A stretch of 64,000 nt of DNA from an uncultured bacterium (lineage in GTDB: Bacteria; Patescibacteriota; Saccharimonadia; Saccharimonadales; Saccharimonadaceae): contig CACWJA010000002.1 of the NCBI GenBank assembly GCA_902761145.1, forward strand, positions 1-64,000. The letters are read 5' to 3'. Below the pieces are notes generated by a model. The model had not been told where the DNA came from, did no database searches, and was given only the letters and a program-made list of their open reading frames with translations. The position numbers were made by a program, and so were the translations under genes. Shown in pieces: positions 1 to 63,920 of this stretch (position 1 is its first letter; each line of letters opens with the position of its first letter).

Positions 1-3000
1 TAACAGTACTATATAAGAAACATAAGAAACAAGGTAAAGTAACCAAACTAGTACGTACTATAGAACAAACCAAGACAATAATAAAAAGTAAGAAACGTAC
101 TACAGCAGCCCTATCTGCTATTGCCCTCCTAGCCTCAGTAGGTACATTAGCAATACTACTAGCAAATAGTAAGAAAACTAACACCAATGCTATGGAAGGG
201 GGTACAGAACTCACAGTAGACGTAAATAGCGAAGACCTCACCATAGAAGTAGGAGATACGCCAGTCTTTGCATATCTACCAGTAAAACTCACTGTAGAAG
301 AAGCAACAACATCTGGTTACATATTATCTGCCTATGCAGAAGATACTAATCTAGTATCTACCACAGATGAATCTAACATCATTCCTATGGTAGCTATTCC
401 AGAACCAATAGAACCAAATGAAGAAGGTGTAGGCAAAGGATGGAGCCCTGTCACTACTCTCACAGACAACACTTGGGGCCTATCACTAGAACAACCACAA
501 GACCAAAATAGTGAAGTATATACAATACTATCTACAGACCAATCTAACCCTACTATCCTAAAATCTATAGACGACTATTCAGAAACAGAAGAGAACGATA
601 CTACCACCATCTACTATGGTTTCTATATTACTCCAGATACTCCTAAAGGTACCTATGAAGGCAGTAATATCACCTACACTGCACTAACCAACCCACCAGT
701 AGCTACAGTTACTTTTGATGGGAATGGACTATACTTCAACGACAACGAAGAACAAACTACTAATACAATAAAATATATCCCAAATGTGCCTACTTCTCAG
801 ACAGTTGCTTATTCTCATACCCCAAACGTAAATGATGAAGGAGAACAGGATGGCATATATGGTAGAGATCTTAATGCTACAGAAGTATATAGATTTGCAG
901 ATACTGCTACTAAAGTTCATGTAAAAATAGTACAGTCTGGTAATGATAGTACCTGTGGTCCAAATTCAGATGATTACTTCACCTTCTGGTCTGGTGCTCA
1001 TTCAGACTATACTGCAAAAGCAAATTATACTTCTGCAGTAAGAGCCTTTGGTAATACAAATGGCCAATACATGTTTGACAATTACAATAATGTAGAAATC
1101 GACCTAGACGGAACCACTGCTGTAACATTTGCCTACACTACTAACGGCTATCAGTACTGCTCTGGTACTGGCTATGGCTACTACGCCATAATCACTGCAC
1201 AAGATGTGGATGGCAATAATGTCCCAGTAATAGCTAACAATAGTGTCGCGGGGAACTATACTGTGCCAACTACTGAGGCAACACATAGATTCCTTGGCTG
1301 GAGCACAGACAAGAATGCACTAATTGGTGCTTACACTAGTGCAGATGATTTTGAGAACTACGTATTTAACTCTCCAGACGAAAAAGTAACAATGTATGCC
1401 ATCTGGGATCCAATCATAGAAATCACCTACAATGGTAATGGTGCAGATGATACTACTGATATGGCAAACGTAAACCAATACACTACAGACTTTACTACAG
1501 CAGGTAGAACAGTAGATCTACTAGCATCTAACTACCAACGTGCAGGCTATGGTTTCATAGGCTGGAGTGAAGACAAAGATGCATATACCAAACTAGTAAA
1601 TGGTGAAGACGTAACTATCTATGGTCCTAATGAAACTCTTACTATAGGCAGGGAAATGCAACAAAGGATGAGCCAGACAGGTAAACTAGAGCTAAACGCC
1701 ATCTGGGCAGAAGTAGCTAAAGACTCACAAGGTAATGACCTTACCTTCCAAACAGACGATCTCCTCACTACAGAACTAGCTGATGGCACCACACTTGCTA
1801 CCAAACCAAATGGCTATGTAACAGCACTAAAAGACAGTAGAGACAATGAAGTATATGCTGTAGCTAAACTAGCAGATGGTAACTACTGGATGATAGAAAA
1901 CTTGAGATTAGACAATAGCTCAGAACTATCACTACAAAACACTAATAACCCATCACTACCACTCACTAACGACTATAATGCAGGTACCACTAGTAACTTC
2001 CTATCTGCTACAAGTGATAGTTGGTGTACAAGCTCCAACGCCCAGTGCAACAACCAGTCTAAGCTAAATACCAATAATACCACTCTTGCTACCACCTCAC
2101 CAGAATTTAGCCAGAACTATACAAATGGTGCCCATAGTAGTGACTTCAATACAAACCTACATTCCTATGGCAACTATTACAACTGGTACTCTGCTACGGC
2201 TGGTAGAGGCACATATGAGACCGACAGCTACGAAGTAGTAGTAGGCGATATCTGCCCAGCTGGTTGGCAACTACCATATGGTGGTAGTGGTGACACAAAC
2301 AATGGTAAAGGCAATACTAGTGGCGGCTTCTATTACCTAAACAATCTACTAGGCAACAGCTCCAATGCTTGGCGTTCCTTCCCGAATAATTTCATCTATT
2401 CTGGATATTGGTATAATTCGCAAACAAGTAGTCGTGGTAACTATGGTTACTATTGGGCTTCTACTACGAGTGGCACAAGTAGCGCCTATAACTTATATTT
2501 CTACAACAGTTATGTGGGCTCCACGAGTAGTAATAGTAAATATTACGGTAGCTCCGTGCGCTGCGTAGCCCCTATCCAAACCACTATTACCTTTGATGGT
2601 AATGGCAGTACAAGTGGAGAGATGGCGAAACAGAAGATAGGTGCTAATAGTGCAGCGCCGCTAAACCAGAATACCTTCACTAAGAATGATTATGCATTTG
2701 CAAGCTGGAACACAGAAAGAGATGGCAGCGGCACAAGCTATGCTGACAGACAAGATTTTACGGCGGGAGAAGGTATTAATAATGTTACTCTGTATGCACA
2801 GTGGGCAGATTGCGTTCCTAATAAAATCTGCTATAAGTCAAACGGTGCCAATAGTCCCACCACTATGGATCCCCAATCCGCCTCATCTAGCACAGACGTA
2901 GAACTCTGGGCCTCCAACTATAAATACGACACCAATAATGATGGTCACAACGACTATGGCTTTGCTGGCTGGAGTGAAGACAAAGATGCTGCCACTAAAC

Positions 3001-5192
3001 TCACAGACAATAATCCAGATAACAACCCAGTAGTCTATGGTCCTAACCAAACTATCACCACTGGAGACCTAAGCCTTGAGGGCATGAAACTCTACGCTGT
3101 CTGGATAGCTCCCAAGGAAAACACTACCTTCCAAGACTTTATTTGTCCTAATAATACAGACATGCCTAAAGGCACTGTCATAGCCCTAAGAGACAACCGA
3201 GATAACGAAGTCTACACTGTAGCCAAACTAGCAGATGGTAACTGCTGGATGACAGAAAACTTAAGACTAGACAACAATGCCACTATTAACGCCACCAATA
3301 CCAATAACCCCATCAGCTCCTTTACTGTCCTCAGCCCTTCTTCTGATAGTTGGTGTACGAGCACCTCATCATCTTGCTTTAACCAAAGCATATTAAATAG
3401 CAACAATATAGCTAACACTGTCTCACCAATGACTGGAACAGATGCTAACATCTATTCCTATAGCAACTACTACAACTGGTACTCTGCTACAGCTGGTAAT
3501 GGTACTAGAAGTATATCCTCCGGTACAGTAGCAGGCGATCTCTGTCCAGCTGGCTGGCACTTACCGTATGGCGGTAATGAAACTAGCGCAAAAGGTGGTA
3601 ACACTAGTGGTGGCTTCTACTATCTAAATCAGCAGATGGGTGCAGCCACTGGTGCTGCAGGCTCCAACAACTGGCGCTCCTTCCCAAATAACTTCGTCTA
3701 TTCCGGCTATTGGTACGGTTCGTCGGCGTACTATCGTGGCAACTACGGCTACTATTGGTCGTCTACCGCGGGCAATACCAGTAGCGCCTACAATCTGTAC
3801 TTCCACAGCGGCTACGTGAATCCGACGAATAGCAGCGATAAGTACTACGGGCATTCGGTGCGGTGTGTGGCTCCAGTAGGGACTACCATCACCTTTGATG
3901 GCAATGGTAGTACCGGCGGAGAGATGTCTAAACAACGTATAGCACAAAACACTACTGCGCCTTTAAATTCTAATAAATTTACTAAAGACGAATATTTCTT
4001 TGGAAGTTGGAACACAGAAAGAGATGGTAGTGGTACAAGCTATGCGGACGGACAAGACTTTACGGCGGGAGAAGGTAATAACAATATTACGCTTTATACT
4101 CAGTGGGTAGAATGTGCGCCAAACTCTATCTGTTACAAACCTAACGGTGCCAATAGTCCTACCACTATTGATCCCCAATCCGCCTCATCTAACACAGACG
4201 TAGAGCTCTGGGCCTCTAACTACAAATATGACACCAATAATGACGGTCACAACGACTATGGCTTTGCTGGCTGGAGTGAAGATAAAGATGCTGCTGCTAA
4301 ACTAGTAGACAATGACTCAACCAACAACCCAGTAGTCTATGGTCCTAACCAAACCATCACCACTGGAGACCTAAGCCTTGAGGGCATGAAACTCTATGCT
4401 GTCTGGATAGCTCCAGAAGAAAACACTTCCTTCCAAGACTTCACTTGTCCTAATAATACAGATATGCCTATAGGCACTGTCATAGCCCTAAGAGATAATA
4501 GGGATAACGAAGTCTACACTGTAGCCAAGCTAGCAGATGGTAACTGCTGGATGACAGAAAACTTAAGATTAGACAATAATGCCACTATTAACGCCACCAA
4601 TACTAATAGCCCCATCAGCACCTTTACTGCCCTCAGCCCTTCTTCTAATAGTTGGTGTGAAGACAATTCAGAATCTTGTATTAACCAAAGCATGTTAAAC
4701 ACCAACAACATAGCTAAATCTGTCTCACCAATGACCGGAACAGATGCCAACATCTATTCCTATGGCAACTACTACAACTGGTACTCTGCTACAGCTGGTA
4801 ATGGTACTTATAGTACTGGCTGGAATGTCACAGTAGCAGGCGATCTCTGTCCAGCTGGCTGGCACTTACCGTATGGCGGTAATGGAACTAGCGCAAAAGG
4901 TGGTAACACTAGTGGTGGCTTCTACTATCTAAATCAGCAGATGGGTGGCGTTACATCTACGCAAGGCTCTAAGAACTGGCGTTCTTTTCCAAATAACTTC
5001 GTCTATTCCGGCGGCTGGTACGGTTCGTCGGCGGGCTATCGCGGCCGCTACGGCTACTATCGGTCGTCTACTGCGCTCAGTACCGGCTACGCGTACCACC
5101 TGAACTTCGGCAGTGACTACGTGGATCAGGGTACGAGTGGCAACCGTATGAGCTACGCGTACTCTGTTCGCTGTGTGGCTCCAGTAGAGTAG
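1..5192 (+). CDS. Giant FISUMP/InlB-repeat surface adhesin A (5' end outside window)
   Basis: The frame is open from base 3 to the TAG at 5190-5192, and about 60 codons are missing upstream judged by the paralogue at 12144. Bases 3-190 encode a Lys/Arg-rich loop, a hydrophobic helix and a T-N-A motif that could be a signal peptidase I site, so the ATG at 192 is internal. The mature part has a beta-rich domain (192-700), InlB-like (Listeria-Bacteroides) repeats beginning ITFDGNG and ending LYAQW/LYTQW (about 2583-2810 and 3883-4107), and three FISUMP (Fib_succ_major) domains at about 1800-2575, 3150-3870 and 4450-5190. Each FISUMP carries WM.ENLRLDN, CPAGW.LPYGG and SVRCVAP. Modules two and three are a recent near-identical duplication. 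The role inferred is adhesion or ligand binding outside the cell. The ends of modules two and three look hypermutated. Confidence 0.88.
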   Translation, partial: TVLYKKHKKQGKVTKLVRTIEQTKTIIKSKKRTTAALSAIALLASVGTLAILLANSKKTNTNAMEGGTELTVDVNSEDLTIEVGDTPVFAYLPVKLTVEEATTSGYILSAYAEDTNLVSTTDESNIIPMVAIPEPIEPNEEGVGKGWSPVTTLTDNTWGLSLEQPQDQNSEVYTILSTDQSNPTILKSIDDYSETEENDTTTIYYGFYITPDTPKGTYEGSNITYTALTNPPVATVTFDGNGLYFNDNEEQTTNTIKYIPNVPTSQTVAYSHTPNVNDEGEQDGIYGRDLNATEVYRFADTATKVHVKIVQSGNDSTCGPNSDDYFTFWSGAHSDYTAKANYTSAVRAFGNTNGQYMFDNYNNVEIDLDGTTAVTFAYTTNGYQYCSGTGYGYYAIITAQDVDGNNVPVIANNSVAGNYTVPTTEATHRFLGWSTDKNALIGAYTSADDFENYVFNSPDEKVTMYAIWDPIIEITYNGNGADDTTDMANVNQYTTDFTTAGRTVDLLASNYQRAGYGFIGWSEDKDAYTKLVNGEDVTIYGPNETLTIGREMQQRMSQTGKLELNAIWAEVAKDSQGNDLTFQTDDLLTTELADGTTLATKPNGYVTALKDSRDNEVYAVAKLADGNYWMIENLRLDNSSELSLQNTNNPSLPLTNDYNAGTTSNFLSATSDSWCTSSNAQCNNQSKLNTNNTTLATTSPEFSQNYTNGAHSSDFNTNLHSYGNYYNWYSATAGRGTYETDSYEVVVGDICPAGWQLPYGGSGDTNNGKGNTSGGFYYLNNLLGNSSNAWRSFPNNFIYSGYWYNSQTSSRGNYGYYWASTTSGTSSAYNLYFYNSYVGSTSSNSKYYGSSVRCVAPIQTTITFDGNGSTSGEMAKQKIGANSAAPLNQNTFTKNDYAFASWNTERDGSGTSYADRQDFTAGEGINNVTLYAQWADCVPNKICYKSNGANSPTTMDPQSASSSTDVELWASNYKYDTNNDGHNDYGFAGWSEDKDAATKLTDNNPDNNPVVYGPNQTITTGDLSLEGMKLYAVWIAPKENTTFQDFICPNNTDMPKGTVIALRDNRDNEVYTVAKLADGNCWMTENLRLDNNATINATNTNNPISSFTVLSPSSDSWCTSTSSSCFNQSILNSNNIANTVSPMTGTDANIYSYSNYYNWYSATAGNGTRSISSGTVAGDLCPAGWHLPYGGNETSAKGGNTSGGFYYLNQQMGAATGAAGSNNWRSFPNNFVYSGYWYGSSAYYRGNYGYYWSSTAGNTSSAYNLYFHSGYVNPTNSSDKYYGHSVRCVAPVGTTITFDGNGSTGGEMSKQRIAQNTTAPLNSNKFTKDEYFFGSWNTERDGSGTSYADGQDFTAGEGNNNITLYTQWVECAPNSICYKPNGANSPTTIDPQSASSNTDVELWASNYKYDTNNDGHNDYGFAGWSEDKDAAAKLVDNDSTNNPVVYGPNQTITTGDLSLEGMKLYAVWIAPEENTSFQDFTCPNNTDMPIGTVIALRDNRDNEVYTVAKLADGNCWMTENLRLDNNATINATNTNSPISTFTALSPSSNSWCEDNSESCINQSMLNTNNIAKSVSPMTGTDANIYSYGNYYNWYSATAGNGTYSTGWNVTVAGDLCPAGWHLPYGGNGTSAKGGNTSGGFYYLNQQMGGVTSTQGSKNWRSFPNNFVYSGGWYGSSAGYRGRYGYYRSSTALSTGYAYHLNFGSDYVDQGTSGNRMSYAYSVRCVAPVE
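3690..3866 (+). other. Second variable-looking FISUMP C-terminal segment in adhesin A
   Basis: This segment aligns codon for codon with the variable regions at 4995-5174 and 61126-61305 over most of its length, with one codon less near the end. It uses CG-rich codons (TCG, GCG) in a gene that otherwise prefers TCT and GCT. Residues at the same sites differ (Y-Y, N-Y, N, S-S and others). It has more third-position changes than the other two copies share, so it is an older copy or came from a different template. Confidence 0.5.
4995..5174 (+). other. Candidate DGR variable region, 3' end of adhesin A
   Basis: These are the last 60 codons before the invariant CVAPVE tail. Hand alignment to the copy at 61126-61305 gives 38 substitutions: 19 at first, 15 at second and 4 at third codon positions. 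Most changed codons are NNC or NNT, as expected if the template codons were AAC or AAT and only adenines were mutated. The flanks on both sides are nearly identical. The fold class (FISUMP, C-terminal SVRC) and the 3'-terminal position fit known DGR targets. No template repeat or reverse transcriptase was seen in the window. Confidence 0.7.
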
Positions 5193-5461: not shown

Positions 5462-5598
5462 TGGTGGAGCGTATGAGAGACTTAGCTTTGCAAAGCAAAG
5501 CCAATACGTGGGGCGTTAATTCGGAAAATCCAAAATGGATTTTGGATTTTCGCTCTTCTCCTACCATGCGCAAACTCTGCTAGTTCTCGTCTTTACAC
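5462..5598 (-). repeat. M-element copy 2, ends in tRNA-Ala 3' copy
   Basis: Read on the minus strand, this element lies downstream of tRNA-Ala and copy 1. It ends with TCTCATACGCTCCACCA, the same 17 nt that end tRNA-Ala. It carries a perfect 13-bp palindrome at 5524-5551 (GAAAATCC... arms, 2-nt loop), a 7-bp hairpin (GCTTTGC-aaa-GCAAAGC) and a T-arm-like stem (AACT with AGTT). Related copies are at 5649 and 15346. It contains no convincing ORF. Confidence 0.7.
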
Positions 5599-5648
5599 AT
5601 CTCTGATTGATAATAAAAAAAAGGAGCCATGAGCTCTTCTATGATTCT

Positions 5649-5775
5649 TGGTGGAGTGTGCGAGGCAAAAAATCGCAGGGCGTCGCCTCAATAAATCCAA
5701 AATGAATTTTGGATTTATATTTGGACTTCTACTGCGTTCGAACTCTATGAGTTTTCATCTCTTGCGAACTTTATC
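5649..5775 (-). repeat. M-element copy 1, ends in degenerate tRNA-Ala 3' copy
   Basis: This has the same architecture as the copy at 5462: a terminal tRNA 3'-end-like sequence ending CTCCACCA, a GCGA...TCGC hairpin, the GGGCGTCG block, a perfect 13-bp palindrome at 5691-5718 (ATAAATCC... arms) and an AACTC-ata-GAGTT stem that resembles the tRNA-Ala T-arm. It lies between tRNA-Ala and copy 2, so the two copies form a tandem array behind the tRNA. Confidence 0.7.
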
Positions 5776-5781
5776 GTCCAT

Positions 5782-5806
5782 AAAAAATAGCTACCTCTAG
5801 TAGCTT
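5782..5806 (-). terminator. Terminator of tRNA-Ala
   Basis: On the minus strand, AGCTAC and GTAGCT form a 6-bp stem with a short loop, followed by ATTTTTT. It lies 10 nt beyond the CCA end of tRNA-Ala. A-runs and T-runs flank both sides, so it could act in both directions. Confidence 0.7.
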
Positions 5807-5815
5807 TTTCATAAA

Positions 5816-12143: not shown

Positions 12144-14915
12144 ATGGCTACTAATATTAAAATTAATATCGTAGAGCCAGGTACTCCACCTAGCCCTACA
12201 CCAATAGATCCTACCATAGACCCCTCTGTTCCGAACACAGGCTTATTCATTCATGGCATAGGTACTCCAGAAGCTACTGTCATAGTAAGTGTAGCATTAG
12301 TATTAGTCATAGTAAGTATAGTACTAACTGCCTATATGTATAGGCGTCACAAGAAAGCTGGTAAAGTCACTAAGCTAGTCCATATCATAGACCAAACTAA
12401 AGCCGTAATAAAAGCCAAGAAGCGTATTACTGTAGGCCTAGCTGCTATAGCCCTCCTAATATCAGCTGGTACCTTTATGACTCTAACCAAAAATGGCGTA
12501 AATGCAACAGACGCAGACAACCAAATAGAAAATGAAGCTGGCCTTACTGTAAGCACGAGTGACCAAGAATTAACCATAGAAGTAGGTGATGAACCAGTCT
12601 TTGCCGTCCTTCCAGTACAAGTAACTGTAGAAGAAGCAACACAGGCGGGTTATACACTAACTGTCTATACAGACAACACTGACTTGGTATCTACTACTAA
12701 TCCTAATAACAAGATCCCTATGGAAGGAGATGAACTAACTACACTAGAAGACAATACATGGGGACTAGCATTAGATAATGAACCAGAAGCTAAAGATAAC
12801 AAAGTATACACCACCCTATCTACAGACCAAGATAATCCTACACTAATCACGGACAAGGATTATGAAGCTACAGAAGCTAATGATACTACTATTATCTACT
12901 ATGGTTTCTATATTACTCCAGATGTCCCATATGGCACATATACTAGTGCGGAAGTGGAGTATGAAGCAACCCAAATCAGAACAGATTTAGTTACGGTGAT
13001 ATTCGATGGTAATGGCCTGTATTTTAATGGTGACGAGGGTCAGATTAGTAATGTCATGCAATATACCACGAATCCTGCTGATAATATTATTGTTCGTTCA
13101 TCTAACATAGACAGCGAAGGCAACCAAACTGGTAAATATGGTGAGGAGCAGCGCCCGGAAAGCATTACCATACCTGGAGCCAGTACAATAAAAGCAAATA
13201 TAAGATATGGTATTACTGCCAATACGGCTGGGATAATGATAGTTGAGGGAATTTGGGACGATAACTGGGATGTTATTCCTGAAAACATGGTGATGTTTTA
13301 TTCTGAGGAAGAAAACCTATCTGGTACAGAAGAGTATACTTTTAATGGCGATACCGTGACTATATTTTCAGAGATTTGGGACCTTCCAGAAGATGGATAT
13401 GACTACGGCTACTATATAACGGTTACTGGCTATGACGCTGATGGTAATGTTGTTTATCCTACGACTAAAAAACTGGCATCTGGCGTGTATTTAACCCCAA
13501 TTTCTAATTTGCCTTATGTATTTTTAGGTTGGAGTGAGGACAAATATGCTACAGAGCCAACATATACTACAGGAGAAGAGATAGAGGAAGGATCGTATCT
13601 CGCGCCGGGTGATACCGTTACGTTATATGCTATATGGCAAAAAGCTATAGAGTTGTCTTTTGAAGGGAATGGTAATGATGGCGGAGAAGCGATAGCTAAC
13701 ATGATTGTTCCAGTAGGAGAGATCATTACTCTTCCAGGGAATACATATACTAAAGAAGGGTATAGCTTTATGGGCTGGAATACAGAGGTAGATGGTAGCG
13801 GGCAGACCTATGCAAACGAAGCAGATTTCATTGCTTCGGCAGATTCTGAATGTGCTTATGCTACGCTTTATGCTCAGTGGGAATTGCTACCGGAAGATCT
13901 TACTTTTACCGCTGGTAACCATATTGATACTCTAATAGTAGCAGATAGTAGCAATAGCTACAAACCATTTTATATTACTTCTGCTAGCATAAACAGGTCT
14001 ATATCTTTTACTGCTCCAGTGGAAGGCACGAAATACATAATCACTGTAGTTCCAAAGCCAGGCTATGTTCTTAGCTCTGATTCTACCCGTAGTTCTTACG
14101 TAGAAGATTATTCTACTGGTACACTAGCTAGCAAGACTCTCCTAACTACTACCTATACGGTAGGTAATGCCGGAGACAACATTACTATTTCAGCAGCTCA
14201 AGCCGGTAGCGACTCTATTCATCCAGCTTACGCTAGCATGCAAAACCTTGCTATTTCTCAATGCCCGGCCTACACAAGCGCAACACAAGGTATTAATGTC
14301 ACAGATACAAGAGATAATAAATCTTATACCGTAGCTAAATTCGGCAACTATTGTTATATGTTAAGCAATTTAAGATTAGATGGTAGCACTAACGGTAATA
14401 CGGTTATACTAACTTCAGACGCTTCCGAGATAACGTCTGGCGCTAGTTTCACTATGCCCAATCAAAATACTTGGACCAGTAGCCTTCAAAATCACTATTG
14501 TGAAGCCAAAATGCGTTATATTAATGGTGAATACTACTACAACTGGTATGCAGCTAAAGCCAATCCTACTTCGGGTATAACTAGTTCTAACTCATGTGCT
14601 ACACCTGCACGAGACGATGCATCCCTCGGCTCTATTTGTCCAGCGGGGTGGAAATTACCTACTTACCACGACATAGGTGAGACTACTCTTTGGAATAATG
14701 GCACTAACCCAGGTATGCTGTCCACTACCGGCGACTTCGTCTCCGGTTCTCAGTATGGTGTTGGTATTCAGGCGTTCTGGTGGTCTAATAGAAAGTCCAG
14801 TATTTATGGTGACATTTTTAGTGCAAATTATCTTTACTTTAGCGGTGAGTATACCAACATTAGTTTTGTCGAAAAGTATGTTGGGCACTCAGTGCGATGT
14901 ATGCGTAGTAATTAG
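12144..14915 (+). CDS. FISUMP/InlB-repeat surface adhesin B
   Basis: This complete 923-aa paralogue shows the family's full N-terminus: MATNIKINIVEPG, a Pro/Asp-rich stretch, VPNTG (29-33), a hydrophobic helix (43-66), RRHKK, a basic loop, a second helix (96-115) and V-N-A, a plausible signal peptidase I site. The ectodomain has a beta-rich region (about 125-280), InlB-like repeats (VIFDGNGLYFN; LSFEGNGNDGG...LYAQW, about 505-580) and one divergent C-terminal FISUMP domain (VTDTRDNKSYTVAKF, CPAGWKLP, HSVRCM). It probably acts as an adhesin. Its C-terminus is not close to the variable regions of paralogues A and C. Confidence 0.9.
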   Translation: MATNIKINIVEPGTPPSPTPIDPTIDPSVPNTGLFIHGIGTPEATVIVSVALVLVIVSIVLTAYMYRRHKKAGKVTKLVHIIDQTKAVIKAKKRITVGLAAIALLISAGTFMTLTKNGVNATDADNQIENEAGLTVSTSDQELTIEVGDEPVFAVLPVQVTVEEATQAGYTLTVYTDNTDLVSTTNPNNKIPMEGDELTTLEDNTWGLALDNEPEAKDNKVYTTLSTDQDNPTLITDKDYEATEANDTTIIYYGFYITPDVPYGTYTSAEVEYEATQIRTDLVTVIFDGNGLYFNGDEGQISNVMQYTTNPADNIIVRSSNIDSEGNQTGKYGEEQRPESITIPGASTIKANIRYGITANTAGIMIVEGIWDDNWDVIPENMVMFYSEEENLSGTEEYTFNGDTVTIFSEIWDLPEDGYDYGYYITVTGYDADGNVVYPTTKKLASGVYLTPISNLPYVFLGWSEDKYATEPTYTTGEEIEEGSYLAPGDTVTLYAIWQKAIELSFEGNGNDGGEAIANMIVPVGEIITLPGNTYTKEGYSFMGWNTEVDGSGQTYANEADFIASADSECAYATLYAQWELLPEDLTFTAGNHIDTLIVADSSNSYKPFYITSASINRSISFTAPVEGTKYIITVVPKPGYVLSSDSTRSSYVEDYSTGTLASKTLLTTTYTVGNAGDNITISAAQAGSDSIHPAYASMQNLAISQCPAYTSATQGINVTDTRDNKSYTVAKFGNYCYMLSNLRLDGSTNGNTVILTSDASEITSGASFTMPNQNTWTSSLQNHYCEAKMRYINGEYYYNWYAAKANPTSGITSSNSCATPARDDASLGSICPAGWKLPTYHDIGETTLWNNGTNPGMLSTTGDFVSGSQYGVGIQAFWWSNRKSSIYGDIFSANYLYFSGEYTNISFVEKYVGHSVRCMRSN

Positions 14916-15345: not shown

Positions 15346-15480
15346 TGGTGCTGGAAGTAGGATTAGACTTTTGCTGGCGCAAAAGCCTTCCATCGGGCGT
15401 CGTCTCAACAAATCTAAAATAAATTTTAGATTTGTGCTCGTCTTCTACGATGGGCGAACCTACGGTTCGTGACCTACCTC
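15346..15480 (-). repeat. M-element copy 3, ends in tRNA-Tyr 3' copy
   Basis: On the minus strand this element follows tRNA-Tyr and ends in TCCTACTTCCAGCACCA, the last 17 nt of that tRNA. It contains a 7-bp hairpin (CTTTTGC-tggc-GCAAAAG), GGGCGTCG, a perfect 13-bp palindrome at 15408-15435 (ACAAATCT... arms) and a CGAACC-gta-GGTTCG hairpin resembling the tRNA-Tyr T-arm. Arm bases differ from copies 1 and 2 in compensating pairs. Confidence 0.72.
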
Positions 15481-15528
15481 GCAATATCAGAAAATAAATA
15501 AAGAGCCTATGGTTCTTTCTTTATTTTC

Positions 15529-15613
15529 TGGTGCTGGAAGTAGGACTCGAACCTACGAAGCCCGAAGGCGAGAGATTTACAGTCTCTTGTCATTGCCACT
15601 AGACGATTCCAGC
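15529..15613 (-). tRNA. tRNA-Tyr(GTA)
   Basis: The acceptor stem GCUGGAA/UUCCAGC, the AGAGA/UCUCU anticodon stem with loop CUGUAAA (anticodon GUA), a long variable arm (GCCUUCGGGC) typical of bacterial tRNA-Tyr, T-arm GUAGG/CCUAC and encoded CCA are all present. An AT-rich inverted repeat (AGAAAATAAA...TTTATTTTCT) directly after it probably terminates transcription. Confidence 0.95.
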
Positions 15614-24052: not shown

Positions 24053-24220
24053 TTTTTGTGGCTCCAGAGAGCCACAATGAGTTGGGAACCGGAGCGTCCC
24101 AAGGGGCAAACGGTTCAAGTCCGACTTGCGGCTCCATTTTTATGGCTCCAGAGAGCCATAATGAGTTGGGAACCGGAGTGTCCCAAGGGGCAAACGGTTC
24201 AAGTCCGACTTGTGGCTCCA
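24053..24220 (+). repeat. Two tandem 84-bp units ending in tRNA-Thr 3' copies
   Basis: Each unit holds a hairpin (GTGGCTC-caga-GAGCCAC in the first, ATGGCTC-caga-GAGCCAT in the second: a compensating pair change), a second stem (TTGGGA with TCCCAA), GGGGCAAAC and then GGTTCAAGTCCGACTTG.GGCTCCA, the T-arm to CCA of tRNA-Thr(TGT). The unit boundaries are the CCA ends at 24052, 24136 and 24220. Confidence 0.85.
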
Positions 24221-30364: not shown

Positions 30365-30421
30365 TTTTATGACAAAAGTTAATGGCTCGGACCTTCGGTG
30401 TGAGCCCTGTAGGATCCACCA
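30365..30421 (+). repeat. tRNA-Val 3'-end copy A
   Basis: TTTATGACAAAAGTTAATGG, then CTCGGACCTTCGGTGTGAG, then CCCTGTAGGATCCACCA, the tRNA-Val T-arm to CCA. It is about 93% identical over 57 bp to copy B at 32564 and forms the left boundary of the islet. Confidence 0.85.
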
Positions 30422-30508
30422 AACGGGTTATAAAATAATATTTAACTATTTCGTAATCTATAAATGCCTGTTAAATCCCTTGGTAAAATAGAGGGCTATT
30501 TTTTGTTA
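30421..30508. repeat. R3 left-end repeat of cassette 1
   Basis: It aligns at roughly 80% with 31400-31486 (shared CGTAATCTATAAAT, CCTGTTAAA and AAAATAGAGGGCTATT). Both copies directly follow a CCACCA-type end and finish with a weak CCCT/AGGG or CCTCT/AGAGG hairpin and a T-rich tail. Confidence 0.75.
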
Positions 30509-31361: not shown

Positions 31362-31400
31362 TTTATAAACTGTTAAAGTCTGGCGAATTAGGCCCCACCA
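31362..31400. repeat. R4 right-end repeat of cassette 1
   Basis: TTTATAAACTGTTAAAGTCT followed by GGCGAATTAGGCCCCACCA matches about 31 of 39 bases at 32521-32559. It directly abuts the R3 repeat of cassette 2. Confidence 0.7.
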
Positions 31401-31486
31401 AACGGTTTATAAAAATATTTTCATCTATTACGTAATCTATAAATTCCTGTTAAACCTCTCAACAAAATAGAGGGCTATTATGTGTC
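31400..31486. repeat. R3 left-end repeat of cassette 2
   Basis: This is the second copy of the repeat at 30421-30508, here preceded by GGCCCCACCA instead of the tRNA-Val copy. Confidence 0.75.
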
Positions 31487-31570: not shown

Positions 31571-32476
31571 CTAATTGACTTTGTTAATCGGATCGTCTGC
31601 CACGGAGAGTATTGACTGTACCCAAATTTCGAACATTTTTTCAAGAGATTCTTGAGTATAGTAGGCATTGTATGGGGTGACGAAAACATTACCTCTATAT
31701 TCTTTGCTCAAATCATCGCTTTCAAAGGCGACGCCGCCAAGTTTACCATCTTCCACCATTTGCGCCATTCTTAACGCTACGTCTTCAAAACCATTCGCTA
31801 CAATGATTACCTTCGTTTGAGGGCTAAACTTTGACAGATCATTAAACAAAGCGAGACTCTCTGGATTTTTTGAAATTGTAATAAACATATACTCGCTTTT
31901 ATTGAGCATTTTATCGAAATCTAAATAATGATATTCTGGATCATTCTGATTATGTGAATAATAGCAGATTTCATCACGACCAATAATACCATCCAACTTC
32001 TTTGCAAGGGCATGACCAATTGCCCCGAAGCCAATTATATCTGTTGGCTTGCCGTACATGTCTTCGCCAATAAACTCTTTATCCCAGTTCATCTTGCCTT
32101 CTTTTTTAAAAAGAGGAAGCTTCTTCGCAAGGGCTAAAGCCATCATTACACATTTTTCTGCAACAGAATTTGTTGCATAGTGCGGCACGTTAGTGACAGC
32201 AATGCCTTTCTCAGAACAATAAGCACAGTCCACCCATTCGTAACCAGTCGTTTCTAGGCAAATGGCTCTTATATTCGGTGTTTTATCTATGATTTCGTTC
32301 TTAAATTCCCAGCCTACGATATCTGGATCTATGGCGATTACTTTCTCGCTCTCGTCATTAAAAAGAAGCTCATGCTCTGGTTCTTCTAGGATAACGACAT
32401 CCTCAAATTTTTCTTTCAAAAGATCTTTTTGTTCAGCAGTTAAATCATTTTGCCGGCAATAAATATATAGTTTCAT
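31571..32476 (-). CDS. D-2-hydroxyacid dehydrogenase family protein lacking catalytic residues (cassette 2)
   Basis: The 301-aa protein has the NAD-binding IIGFGAIGHALAKKL and the domain order of D-2-hydroxyacid dehydrogenases. The usual catalytic Arg motif (xARGxxVD) reads VANGFEDVAL, and the TPH.AG His motif reads TPYNAYYT. Loss of both Arg and His suggests it does not oxidise or reduce a 2-hydroxyacid in the usual way; it may bind NAD or have drifted. AAGGAG precedes ATG. It lies alone in cassette 2. Confidence 0.8.
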   Translation of the reverse strand: MKLYIYCRQNDLTAEQKDLLKEKFEDVVILEEPEHELLFNDESEKVIAIDPDIVGWEFKNEIIDKTPNIRAICLETTGYEWVDCAYCSEKGIAVTNVPHYATNSVAEKCVMMALALAKKLPLFKKEGKMNWDKEFIGEDMYGKPTDIIGFGAIGHALAKKLDGIIGRDEICYYSHNQNDPEYHYLDFDKMLNKSEYMFITISKNPESLALFNDLSKFSPQTKVIIVANGFEDVALRMAQMVEDGKLGGVAFESDDLSKEYRGNVFVTPYNAYYTQESLEKMFEIWVQSILSVADDPINKVN

Positions 32477-32563: not shown

Positions 32564-32620
32564 TTTTATGACAAAAGTTAATGGCTCGGACCTTCGGTGC
32601 GAGTCCTGTAGGATCCATCA
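32564..32620 (+). repeat. tRNA-Val 3'-end copy B
   Basis: It repeats copy A with about four changes (GGTGCGAGTCCTG; the end reads CATCA). It is the right boundary of the 2.2-kb islet that begins at 30365. Confidence 0.85.
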
Positions 32621-59981: not shown

Positions 59982-59983
59982 TG

Positions 59984-60003
59984 TCCCATGTAGGGATTTT
60001 TTT
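59984..60003 (+). terminator. Terminator of tRNA-Gln
   Basis: TCCC-atgta-GGGA followed by TTTTTTT. Confidence 0.75.
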
Positions 60004-60007
60004 ATTC

Positions 60008-60046
60008 GGGACTCGGACCTTCGGTGCGAATCCCTCATCCCCAGCC
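60008..60046 (+). repeat. tRNA-Gln 3'-end copy
   Basis: CTCGGACCTTCGGTGCGA precedes ATCCCTCATCCCCAGCCA, the 3' end of tRNA-Gln. The same 18-nt lead sequence precedes the tRNA-Val 3' copy B at 32564. A terminator (CCTC/GAGG plus TTTTTT, about 60049-60070) follows. Confidence 0.8.
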
Positions 60047-60119
60047 ATGTCCTCTATGAGGGGCTTTTTTATTTGGGACTCAAATTATCATTTTTTTGTG
60101 GTATTGTTAAGATATGAGC

Positions 60120-61107: not shown

Positions 61108-63920
61108 CTACTCTACTGGAGCCACACAGCGAACAGAGTACCCGTTGAACTTATAGTTGTTATCCGTACCTGGAGCCACGTAGCCACTGTCGAAGTACAA
61201 GTAGTACGCGACGCTGGTACTACTCGCAGTAGACGACCAATAGTAGCCGACGCTACCACGAGCGCTCGCCGACGAACCGTACCAGTAGCTGGAATAGATG
61301 AAGTTATTTGGGAAAGAGCGCCATTTATTGGAAGCTTCAGTTGAGCCGTAGCTTCCATTTCCACCCATACTAGTGTCTAAGTGGGAGAAGGAACCGTTAG
61401 CTTCTGTTTTGTTACCTATAGGTAGTATCCAGCCAGCTGGGCAGAGGTCACCAGCAACGGTTTCTGCACCTTGTTCGCCAGTACTATAAGCACCTTTACC
61501 AGCAGTAGCAGAGTACCAGTTGTAGTTGTTGCCATATGATTGCCATTGGAAAGCTTTGTTGTCGTCATAGTTACCATTGTAACTAGCTATGGCGCCTTCA
61601 CCGCCTAAGTTAGTGTTGAAAGTATTGAGATAGGATTGGTCGTAGCAGGCAGCACTATTCCAACCTGTACACCAGCTTCTACCATTTGGTGATAGATGGT
61701 TGTAATTGTTGCCGTCATTATTCTTTATAGCTACATTACCGTCTACCGTTAGTGGGTTATTGGTATTGGTGGTGGAGATAGTAGAATCATTATCCAGCCT
61801 CAAGTTTTCTGTCATCCAGCAGTTACCGTCCGCTAGTCTGGCTACTGTGTAGATATTGCCGTCTCTACTGTCTGTAAGTGCAGTGATAGTATTCTTACCT
61901 ACAGTTAGTTGTCCTGTTTCTGTATTGTAGGTAGTAGGAGTGAGAGAGGAACAGCCTTGCCAATCTTGGAGAGAGATAGGGTTACCACTATTGTCTGTTT
62001 CTGCTGGTACCCAGACAGCATAGAGAATGTCTTTTCCTTCTGCTGCTTTTATGACTATATCTTTAGTCATGACGAATGATTGGTTAGGGTCATAGATGAC
62101 TGGGTCATTAGACTCATCATCATCCGTGAGATCTTCCCATGCAGCCTGATCTGTGCTCCAGCCAGCGAAGCCATAGCCAGTCTTTTTGTAGTTAGGAGCA
62201 TAGAGATCTATATTGTCACCTGCTATTACATCTTCATGTGCTAGAGTTACCGTAGTTGGAGTATCGCCATCGTAGGAAGTAGATTCCATACTACCAGCAG
62301 TAGCATTATTGCCGTCGTAGCTAATGTCTACTATTGGTGACCAGATAGCGTAGAGCGTTACTTTTTCGCCTGCGTTTAGAAACATATTGGTTTCTATATC
62401 AGCTGCATCTGCATAGTCAGCACTGGTAGCATTAGGATCTAAGCTCCAGCCGAAGAATTCGTAGTTATCATATTCTGTAGTGGCTGGGGTTTGGTATGCT
62501 CCAGAATATTGAGTGTTGCCCATAGCATAGGCTGGGTTACCATCAGCATCAGTAGCAGTAATGATAGCGTAGTAGCCATAGCCAGAGTTACCGCAGTAGC
62601 TTCCTCTATGATCGCTAGTAGTATAGGCAAGGGTTAGGGTGTTGCCTTGTACTGTTGTGTTCATAGACCAGCTTCGAGACTTACCAAATATATATTTGCC
62701 ATCAGAACCGTCTACTTTTACGCCAGATTCCCAGTTATTTACTGCAGTATAGTCTGGGTGACTGCCTTGCCAGAAGCTAAAATACTGGTCGGCATTAGGT
62801 CCACAGGTACCATCTGCTTCAATCTTGACAATATTCAGATTTACTTCCGTAGCATCTGCAAATTCATAGACGAAAGTATTGTTTAGTCCAATCGGGTACA
62901 TCTCACCCGGAGTTTGTTCGCCTGCATCATTTATGTTGGGGGTGTGAGAGTAGAGTTCAGTCTTTTCTGTTTCAGTTCTCTCGTAGCGTACTACATTGGT
63001 GGTTTTATCGCCATTGAAATTGAGGCCGTTACCATCAAAGGTTACTGTAACTAGATCTGCTCTATTGGCTTCTGCAGAGTAGTTTATCTCACTTCCTTCA
63101 TAGGTACCTTTAGGAACATCTGGAGTGATATAGAAACCATAGTAGATGGTAGTAGTGTCATTTGCATTTGTTTCTGAATAGTCGTCTATAGATTTTAGGA
63201 TAGTAGGGTTAGATTGGTCTGTAGATAGTGTTGTGCATACTTCACTGTTTTGGTCTTGTGGTTATTCTAGTGACAAGCCCCAGGTGTTATCTGTGAGAGA
63301 AGTATACTCTGATAAGTCTTCTTCATTTAAAGCCACCATGGGTATTTTGCTGTCTGGATCTGTAGTAGATACTATGTCTGTACTATCTGTGTAGGCTGTA
63401 AGAGTGTAGCCTGCTTGGGTTGCTTCTTCTACTGTGAGTTCTACTGGTAGGACTGCAAAGACTGGTTCGTCTCCTACTTCTATAGTTAGTTCTTCACTAT
63501 CTACGTCTAGGGTGAGAGAAGATTCGTTTTCTTCTGTGTTTCCTTCTGCTGCATTAGTATTGCTTTACCTACATTTACTAGGAGTGTAGCTAATGTACCT
63601 AATGATACTACTAGTGCTAGTATTGCTAGTGGGATAGATACTTTCTTTTTGGATTTTATGGTAGATATGATATTAGTTAACTTAGATTTGGAGGATGATT
63701 CTGTGGCTTTATTATTATGCTTCTTTTTATAATGTAGTACTGTAGCTACTACTGCTAGTATTACTACTATGCTTATTGTGATGATAGTAGCTTCTGTACC
63801 ACCTATACCATGAGTAAATAGGCCTGTGTCTGGCGCTGAGATGTCTGTAGTAGGGTCTACTGGTGTAGAGCTGCCTGGTTCTACTATGTTAATCTTGATA
63901 TTAGTGGTAGTAGCAGCCAT
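61108..63920 (-). pseudogene. FISUMP/InlB-repeat surface adhesin C, broken
   Basis: The gene starts at 63920 (MAATTTNIKINIVEPG, APDTG, hydrophobic helix, basic loop, second helix) with an AGGAGGAG SD. The frame breaks near 63560: a one-base loss moves VGKA... off the frame that reads NTNAAEGNTEENES. Downstream, the conserved SLEQPQDQNSE has TAA (63262-63264) for CAA. The rest is open to 61108, with an InlB-like domain and one FISUMP domain (WMTENLRLDN, CPAGW.LP, SVRCVAPVE). An internal ATG at 62901 could express the C-terminal part without export signals. The variable region is intact. Confidence 0.85.
61126..61305 (-). other. Candidate DGR variable region in broken adhesin C
   Basis: These 60 codons align without gaps to 4995-5174 on the plus strand. 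The sequence beyond the stop is also similar for a short distance (TAGTTT...TTCC). See the entry at 4995 for the substitution counts. Confidence 0.7.

Follow-up and report, generated by a model that had tools for sequence, protein, structure and literature searches.

The tRNA-Tyr locus and related units in the window

The window, the whole 64,000-nt stretch of DNA that was analyzed, carries a tRNA-Tyr(GTA) gene on the minus strand at positions 15529 to 15613 (ARAGORN; Rfam RF00005, 57.6 bits), and on its 3' side, on the same strand and without a gap, lies a 183-nt type A unit (15346 to 15528) that starts directly after the CCA of the tRNA and ends in a second CCA. Read along the minus strand, on which all of its parts lie, the unit opens with a terminator-like hairpin that it supplies itself (15490 to 15528); the sequence GCTCTTTATTTATTTTCTGA of this hairpin is also found in Ala, Val, and Tyr units of other genomes. 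There follow an antisense copy of the tRNA-Tyr T-arm, GAGGTAGG-TCAC-GAACC (15464 to 15480), identified from the fold and from statistics over 75 copies, and arm 1 (15455 to 15468), GAACC-GTA-GGTTCG, in which the GTA turn gives a C(GNA)G DNA triloop and the 3' side is the beginning of a direct copy of the T-arm. Arm 2 (15390 to 15453) comprises a 6-bp stem, a conserved internal loop (GTAGAAG/CGACGCCC), a 12-bp palindromic stem, and a TTTA loop, as defined by RNA model R1 and by covariation over 94 sequences; R1 matches positions 15388 to 15468 with an E value of 7.8e-27, the Tyr copy itself being in the training set. After arm 3 (15366 to 15387), a hairpin of the form GGCTTTTGC-GCCA-GCAAAAGTC recognized by its fold and loop type, the unit is closed by TCCTACTTCCAGCACCA (15346 to 15362), whose sequence is that of the last 17 nt of tRNA-Tyr.

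The core splits the direct T-arm copy, with GGTTCG standing before arm 2 and the remainder, within TCCTACTTCCAGCACCA, after arm 3, and the body of the unit is nested within inverted and direct copies of the local T-arm. Beside the junction, the linker departs from an exact antisense sequence, TC being replaced by GA, AA, and similar dinucleotides, so the antisense part has been either edited or retained by selection for pairing. An earlier note, made from the sequence of the window alone, had described the block order as a hairpin, GGGCGTCG, a 13-bp palindrome, CTTCTAC, and a T-arm-like hairpin. We find the same order, after which an AT-rich hairpin follows; the palindrome is genuine, but its size is not 13 bp, as it consists of a 12-bp stem with a TTTA loop. 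Within the T-arm-like hairpin, GGTTCG is derived from the tRNA, but the GTA that precedes it is not: it is the loop of the element, found behind other tRNAs too. The match that the note had reported between the end of this copy and tRNA-Tyr is exact over all 17 nt, including the CCA.

A congener (G018) has an identical 85-nt tRNA-Tyr gene without the unit, and the 105 nt downstream are 85% identical to the sequence that lies beyond the unit in the window; the unit is therefore an insertion exactly after the CCA. The resident terminator-like sequence has been retained on the far side of the unit, and the tRNA 3' end forms a direct repeat at the two borders. Among 30 tRNA-Tyr loci of congeners, the majority have no unit and the others carry different unit types, so that presence is sporadic.

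Further units lie in the window. Behind tRNA-Ala(GGC), on the minus strand, there are two tandem type A units, the first (5649 to 5815; model match, 5671 to 5752) with a diverged end, CTCGCACACTCCACCA, and the second (5462 to 5648; model match, 5504 to 5584) with an end, TCTCATACGCTCCACCA, that is the end of the same tRNA. On the plus strand, tRNA-Thr(TGT) is followed by a short type D unit without arm 2 (24053 to 24136), which carries an exact copy of the tRNA-Thr end, and by a second such unit in tandem (24137 to 24220). Short type E units lie, also on the plus strand, behind tRNA-Val(CAC) (30365 to 30421, with an exact copy of the tRNA-Val end), at a second copy 2.2 kb away (32564 to 32620), and behind tRNA-Gln(CTG) (59982 to 60047). 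In the genome as a whole, type A units, which have arm 2, are found behind tRNA-Tyr, tRNA-Ala(GGC) (twice), tRNA-Arg(CCT), tRNA-Arg(TCG), tRNA-Ile(TAT), and tRNA-Leu(GAG), in addition to remnants; type B units have no arm 2, and types C, D, and E are shorter and also have none. Units may form tandem arrays, in which the distal units are degraded. For 18 of the 43 tRNAs of this genome whose flanks were retrieved, the last 16 nt of the tRNA recur, with no more than 2 mismatches, in the next 400 nt, where 0.05 would be expected as computed from the ends of other tRNAs; in a sample from other genera of the order, such copies were found for 2 of 38 tRNAs.

Two other features of the window may be recorded. 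Between 30288 and 32620, the two type E units behind tRNA-Val(CAC) enclose a 2-hydroxyacid-dehydrogenase-like open reading frame (31571 to 32476, minus strand) and a 97-nt direct repeat (30410 to 30506 and 31389 to 31485); the segment may be a small island that has tRNA ends as its borders. There are also three paralogous large open reading frames resembling surface proteins (192 to 5192, 12144 to 14915, and, on the opposite strand, 61108 to 62901), the first of which has internal repeats of about 1.3 kb, with motifs such as GNCWMTENLRLD and YWSSTA.

Distribution in the genus and relation to the local tRNA

Of 90 genomes from the genus, 73 had the body according to a covariance model built from its arms 1 and 2; outside the genus the model gave a match, a weak one, in 1 of 59 genomes. 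Named genomes with the body pattern were mostly those of uncultured "Candidatus Saccharibacteria," many from the guts of sheep, goats, and other ruminants; a few matching contigs of high-G+C actinobacterial or other origin were taken to be chance matches and were not checked. Of 102 matches analyzed, 77 lay within 450 nt behind a recognized tRNA, most at about 60 nt, and these tRNAs belonged to 25 species. The orientation of the body relative to the tRNA was constant (84 versus 0).

The earlier note had proposed that the body of the element is shared while its ends track the host tRNA, and a survey that it had named beforehand upheld the proposal across the 25 tRNA species: 51 of the 77 copies carried the last 18 nt of the local tRNA with at most 3 mismatches, whereas the ends of tRNAs for other amino acids differed from the copy ends by a median of about 8 mismatches. 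The terminal match thus follows the adjacent tRNA in other copies as well, and the copies that do not match mostly have truncated or degraded local ends, not foreign ones. Tracking extends beyond what the note had described. The hairpin before the body likewise follows the local T-arm, down to the T-loop base after TTC (G-G, 66; A-A, 6; A-G, 2; G-A, 1), a base that is unpaired in the fold. The antisense segment formed at least 7 of 8 Watson-Crick pairs with the local T-stem in 43 of 75 copies, compared with 4% for other tRNAs; against the acceptor strand there was no tracking (4.28 of 7 pairs for the local tRNA versus 4.27 for other tRNAs). For 27 of 77 bodies (4 expected), the closest relative in another genome was at the same tRNA, and for 50 it was at a different one; the terminator and linker are also common to units at different tRNAs. 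As judged from these sequence relationships, bodies have been shown to switch between tRNAs.

Behind the tRNA-Tyr genes of three congeners (L338, L341, and L352), arm 2 has the variants CAACGAAGCGAG/CGAGCGAGG or TTTCAAGGAAGCG in place of GTAGGAG/CGACGCCC; by their sequence, these represent at least one more subfamily.

The matches without a recognized upstream tRNA contain arm 2 and arm 3 at other kinds of site. In several genomes this core begins right at the CCA of a tRNA and ACCA or GACCA follows arm 3; the CCA then makes up part of the arm 2 stem. Other cores sit at a -35 box with TTGAC on both flanks, and three of these are inside CIRCE-type operators, as in G028, where AGCACTATTGAC-core-TTGACACACGAGTGCTA lies upstream of a dnaK-like gene; the uninterrupted CIRCE-type operator is present in 66 of 99 congeners and reads exactly AGCACTATTGACACACGAGTGCTA in G040. 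Two further matches interrupt the T-loop of apparently broken tRNA-Gln genes (L090 and L120), each beside an intact tRNA-Gln copy. The presence of the core at CCA ends, at -35 boxes, and in tRNA-Gln shows that it is a mobile module and is not formed anew behind each tRNA. Where the core interrupts heat-shock operators of the CIRCE type (L151, L094, and L134), at the -35 boxes of another gene and of dnaK-like genes, it should alter HrcA control in the strains concerned.

Folding, mobility, and alternative explanations

The Tyr unit folds better than shuffled sequences, with z scores of -5.6 as RNA and -6.8 as DNA, and the predicted fold is a three-arm junction closed by the antisense and direct copies. 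In 94 sequences, all 18 pairs of arm 2 have changed on both sides and 98.2% of cells are paired; double changes numbered 405, compared with 95 in shuffles and 56 to 80 in slid-partner controls. Because the alignment was fitted to the structure, these counts lean towards it, and covariation by itself fits RNA or single-stranded DNA and cannot tell them apart.

The loops are more informative. C(GNA)G, C(GNNA)G, and TTTA loops are in general especially stable in DNA. In arms 1 and 3 they made up 52%, 11%, and 13% of the loops, respectively, GNA triloops being present in 50 of 72 copies of arm 1 and in 24 of 72 copies of arm 3, which had TTTA in 16; arm 2 loops were mostly TTTA or CTTG. Of the classic RNA loops, GNRA was present once and TTCG not at all among 211 arm loops. 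Among background hairpins, the DNA-type loop classes were seen in none of the 30 from the window and in 1 of the 23 from other loci of congeners. Some short DNA hairpins, of which GCGAAGC is a named example, are extraordinarily stable (PMC10527192). The hairpin loops, as read from the sequences, thus speak for single-stranded DNA over RNA; the preference could partly reflect common ancestry rather than selection.

No gene that would account for movement was identified. The 183-nt unit is too small for a gene and encodes no integrase, and a longer autonomous relative with a gene between two tRNA ends was not found within the 0.6 to 1.5 kb of flank of most truncated copies. Mobilization of the REP or IS200/IS605 kind was rejected because the Y1 transposase (PF01797) is absent from this genome and nearly so from the genus (3 of 99 congeners match). 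The resemblance of the antisense part to a primer binding site led us to consider a tRNA-primed retroelement, which was excluded by the absence of a reverse transcriptase (PF00078) from the genome, and a casposon or CRISPR-like adaptation was excluded by the absence of Cas1 (PF01867). A mimic of the acceptor-stem minihelix was also rejected, since the acceptor strand is unpaired in type A. The whole genome has one match to tyrosine recombinases (PF00589), on another contig, and this is probably the housekeeping Xer protein.

Several explanations have to be weighed against these data. The units could be RNA genes, tRNA-like and CCA-ended, that are read through from the tRNA promoter and have been selected to regulate, or to compete for, the cognate tRNA, the synthetase that charges it, or the enzymes that process it. 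The RNA fold z score of -5.6, the strong covariation, the co-orientation with tRNAs, and the annotation of E. coli rtT, which has the same layout, as a small RNA would all be accommodated, but whether a unit is found at a particular tRNA varies sporadically from congener to congener, hardly any of the loops are of the RNA type, and the core also lies upstream of -35 boxes, outside the transcript of that promoter. Moreover, the antisense part pairs with the T-stem and not with the acceptor strand, so that there would be no full acceptor stem; we consider this explanation unlikely. Satellites of a site-specific recombinase, with the tRNA 3' end as the attachment core and the second tRNA end as the other attachment site, would behave as tRNA-targeted islands usually do, inserting exactly at the tRNA 3' end, repeating that end, and forming tandem arrays. 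However, an integrase normally uses one site, whereas one body family is found here at 25 tRNA species, and this genome has only one tyrosine recombinase. A separate lineage for each tRNA would favor such satellites, yet the nearest neighbor belongs to the same tRNA in only 27 of 77 cases, and the account leaves unexplained both the antisense T-arm and those cores at TTGAC and at CCA that lack a long repeat; we regard it as improbable.

It can also be envisioned that no mobile element exists and that slippage during replication, together with template switching by fold-back at tRNA terminators, produces the tRNA-end copies, both inverted and direct, locally and in place. The order of sense end, terminator, antisense T-arm, and sense T-arm is what two strand switches would produce, types C, D, and E do without arm 2 behind other tRNAs, and the distal units of tandem arrays are degraded. 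Arm 2 with its conserved loop cannot, however, arise anew behind 25 tRNAs, units at different tRNAs have the terminator and linker in common, and the core also occurs away from tRNAs. The shared core refutes this account as a full explanation, and as such it has little credence with us, but slippage and template switching could yet account for the writing of the tRNA copies.

We have shown that the unit is an insertion exactly after the CCA, that units are found behind 25 tRNA species, that parts of them match the local tRNA, and that their hairpins are kept by compensatory change. The reading that we prefer, to which we assign a probability of about one-half, is that they form a genus-wide family of short nonautonomous mobile elements that act as folded single-stranded DNA and whose tRNA parts are copied at each new site. 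There is good support for mobility and for templating by the tRNA; the route of copying and any enzyme are inferred. The mobile core would consist of the arm 2 hairpin, whose conserved loop is GTAGGAG/CGACGCCC, together with the arm 3 hairpin, and behind tRNAs it is carried in a unit made up of the terminator-like hairpin, the antisense T-arm, the split direct T-arm, and the 3' end with its CCA. We infer that entry of the core into single-stranded DNA takes place at the 3' end of the tRNA or close to it, and that strand-switching or hairpin-primed synthesis then copies the local tRNA end from both strands, so that the ends would be written at each new site. The same copying process may afterwards keep the tRNA copies alike, and selection for pairing may contribute, given the inexact antisense linker. 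Saccharibacteria are naturally competent, and their ComFC protein binds incoming single-stranded DNA (PMC10633639); such DNA is therefore a plausible substrate. Since the tRNA in front of the unit stays intact and the unit itself terminates in another complete 3' end, the insertion is tolerated and should be harmless to the tRNA.

Relation to rtT and other repeat families

To our knowledge, the rtT repeats behind E. coli tRNA-Tyr have so far been treated as an isolated oddity. Like the units described here, rtT (tyrT/tyrV; RF00391, RttR) consists of tandem units, 178 nt in length, that lie directly behind tRNA-Tyr and each end in the tRNA 3' end. Behind tyrV, the antisense T-stem GGGGAAGGAT is followed by a GA linker, a hairpin ending in GGTTCG, inserted hairpins, and then ATCCTTCCCCCACCACCA, and there are several C(GNA)G hairpins. 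The sequence of the insert differs, and only one E. coli tRNA locus was examined. RF00391 found no match in the window or in four other loci (L046, L070, L072, and L080), whereas E. coli gives three, and an Rfam search of the region at a low threshold gave only the tRNA above chance. On present sequence evidence, the Saccharibacteria units work like rtT and have its layout; common descent has not been shown. Given the same layout, the puzzling rtT repeat is apparently an instance of a broader type of mobile repeat.

In 379 Patescibacteria genomes the consensus GGAYRAGAACCNNNGGTTCG was matched three times, each time behind a tRNA (Ser-TGA, Asp, or Thr-TGT). The Asp and Thr-TGT units (L378 and L379), from a genome of another genus of the order (G103), have a common, different insert in the same layout. 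Of 17 matches in viral contigs, two have this layout, one behind tRNA-Arg with a complete end (L374) and the other cut off by the end of the contig (L365); the rest look like chance matches in coding sequence. The rtT layout is here that of a mobile family across a genus, at 25 tRNA species, with single cases in other Saccharibacteria and in metagenomic contigs, and the origin of rtT thereby becomes a testable question. The units are also a naturally occurring example of an element that acquires new target-specific parts wherever it inserts; each genome offers numerous sites, empty sites are available for comparison, and the host group is naturally competent and genetically manipulable. No description of such units was found in the literature on rtT, tRNA-flanking repeats, and Saccharibacteria, a search that did not cover most subscription papers, among them the original rtT work. 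We raise, as no more than a tentative possibility, a bacterial class of mobile elements that would include rtT, would move in the form of folded single-stranded DNA, would need no dedicated transposase, and would have ends written from both strands of the local tRNA end.

Among known systems, REP/BIME elements with TnpA_REP (RAYT) and the ends of IS200/IS605 elements have strand-specific hairpins with a 5' GTAG, repeat the adjoining target at the right end, and in one REP system have a TTTA loop (PMC8266576; PMC6006769). The units resemble REP elements in having strand-specific hairpins, a target repeat at the right end, and a TTTA loop. GTAG may be a further point of resemblance: GTAG(G/A)AG is conserved 5' of the palindromic stem, but it lies about 13 nt before the stem, inside the internal loop, whereas in REP elements GTAG is at the 5' foot. 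Unlike REP elements, the units occur without TnpA_REP/Y1 in the genome, in few copies, mostly behind tRNAs, and with tRNA-specific ends. With integrative elements and islands they share insertion exactly at a tRNA 3' end and repetition of that end at the far side, but a unit has only 183 nt, no integrase gene, and an antisense T-arm copy, and a single family is present at 25 tRNA species. MITEs and bacterial palindromic repeats, such as ERIC and the Rickettsia palindromic elements, are likewise short, noncoding, hairpin-forming, and dispersed within one taxon; the units differ from them in their tRNA-tracking ends, in a core with a conserved internal loop, and in their strong preference for tRNA 3' ends. 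In conclusion, the units are a mobile, multi-tRNA form of the rtT-type tRNA-end repeat, with REP-like single-stranded DNA features and without the enzyme of REP elements.
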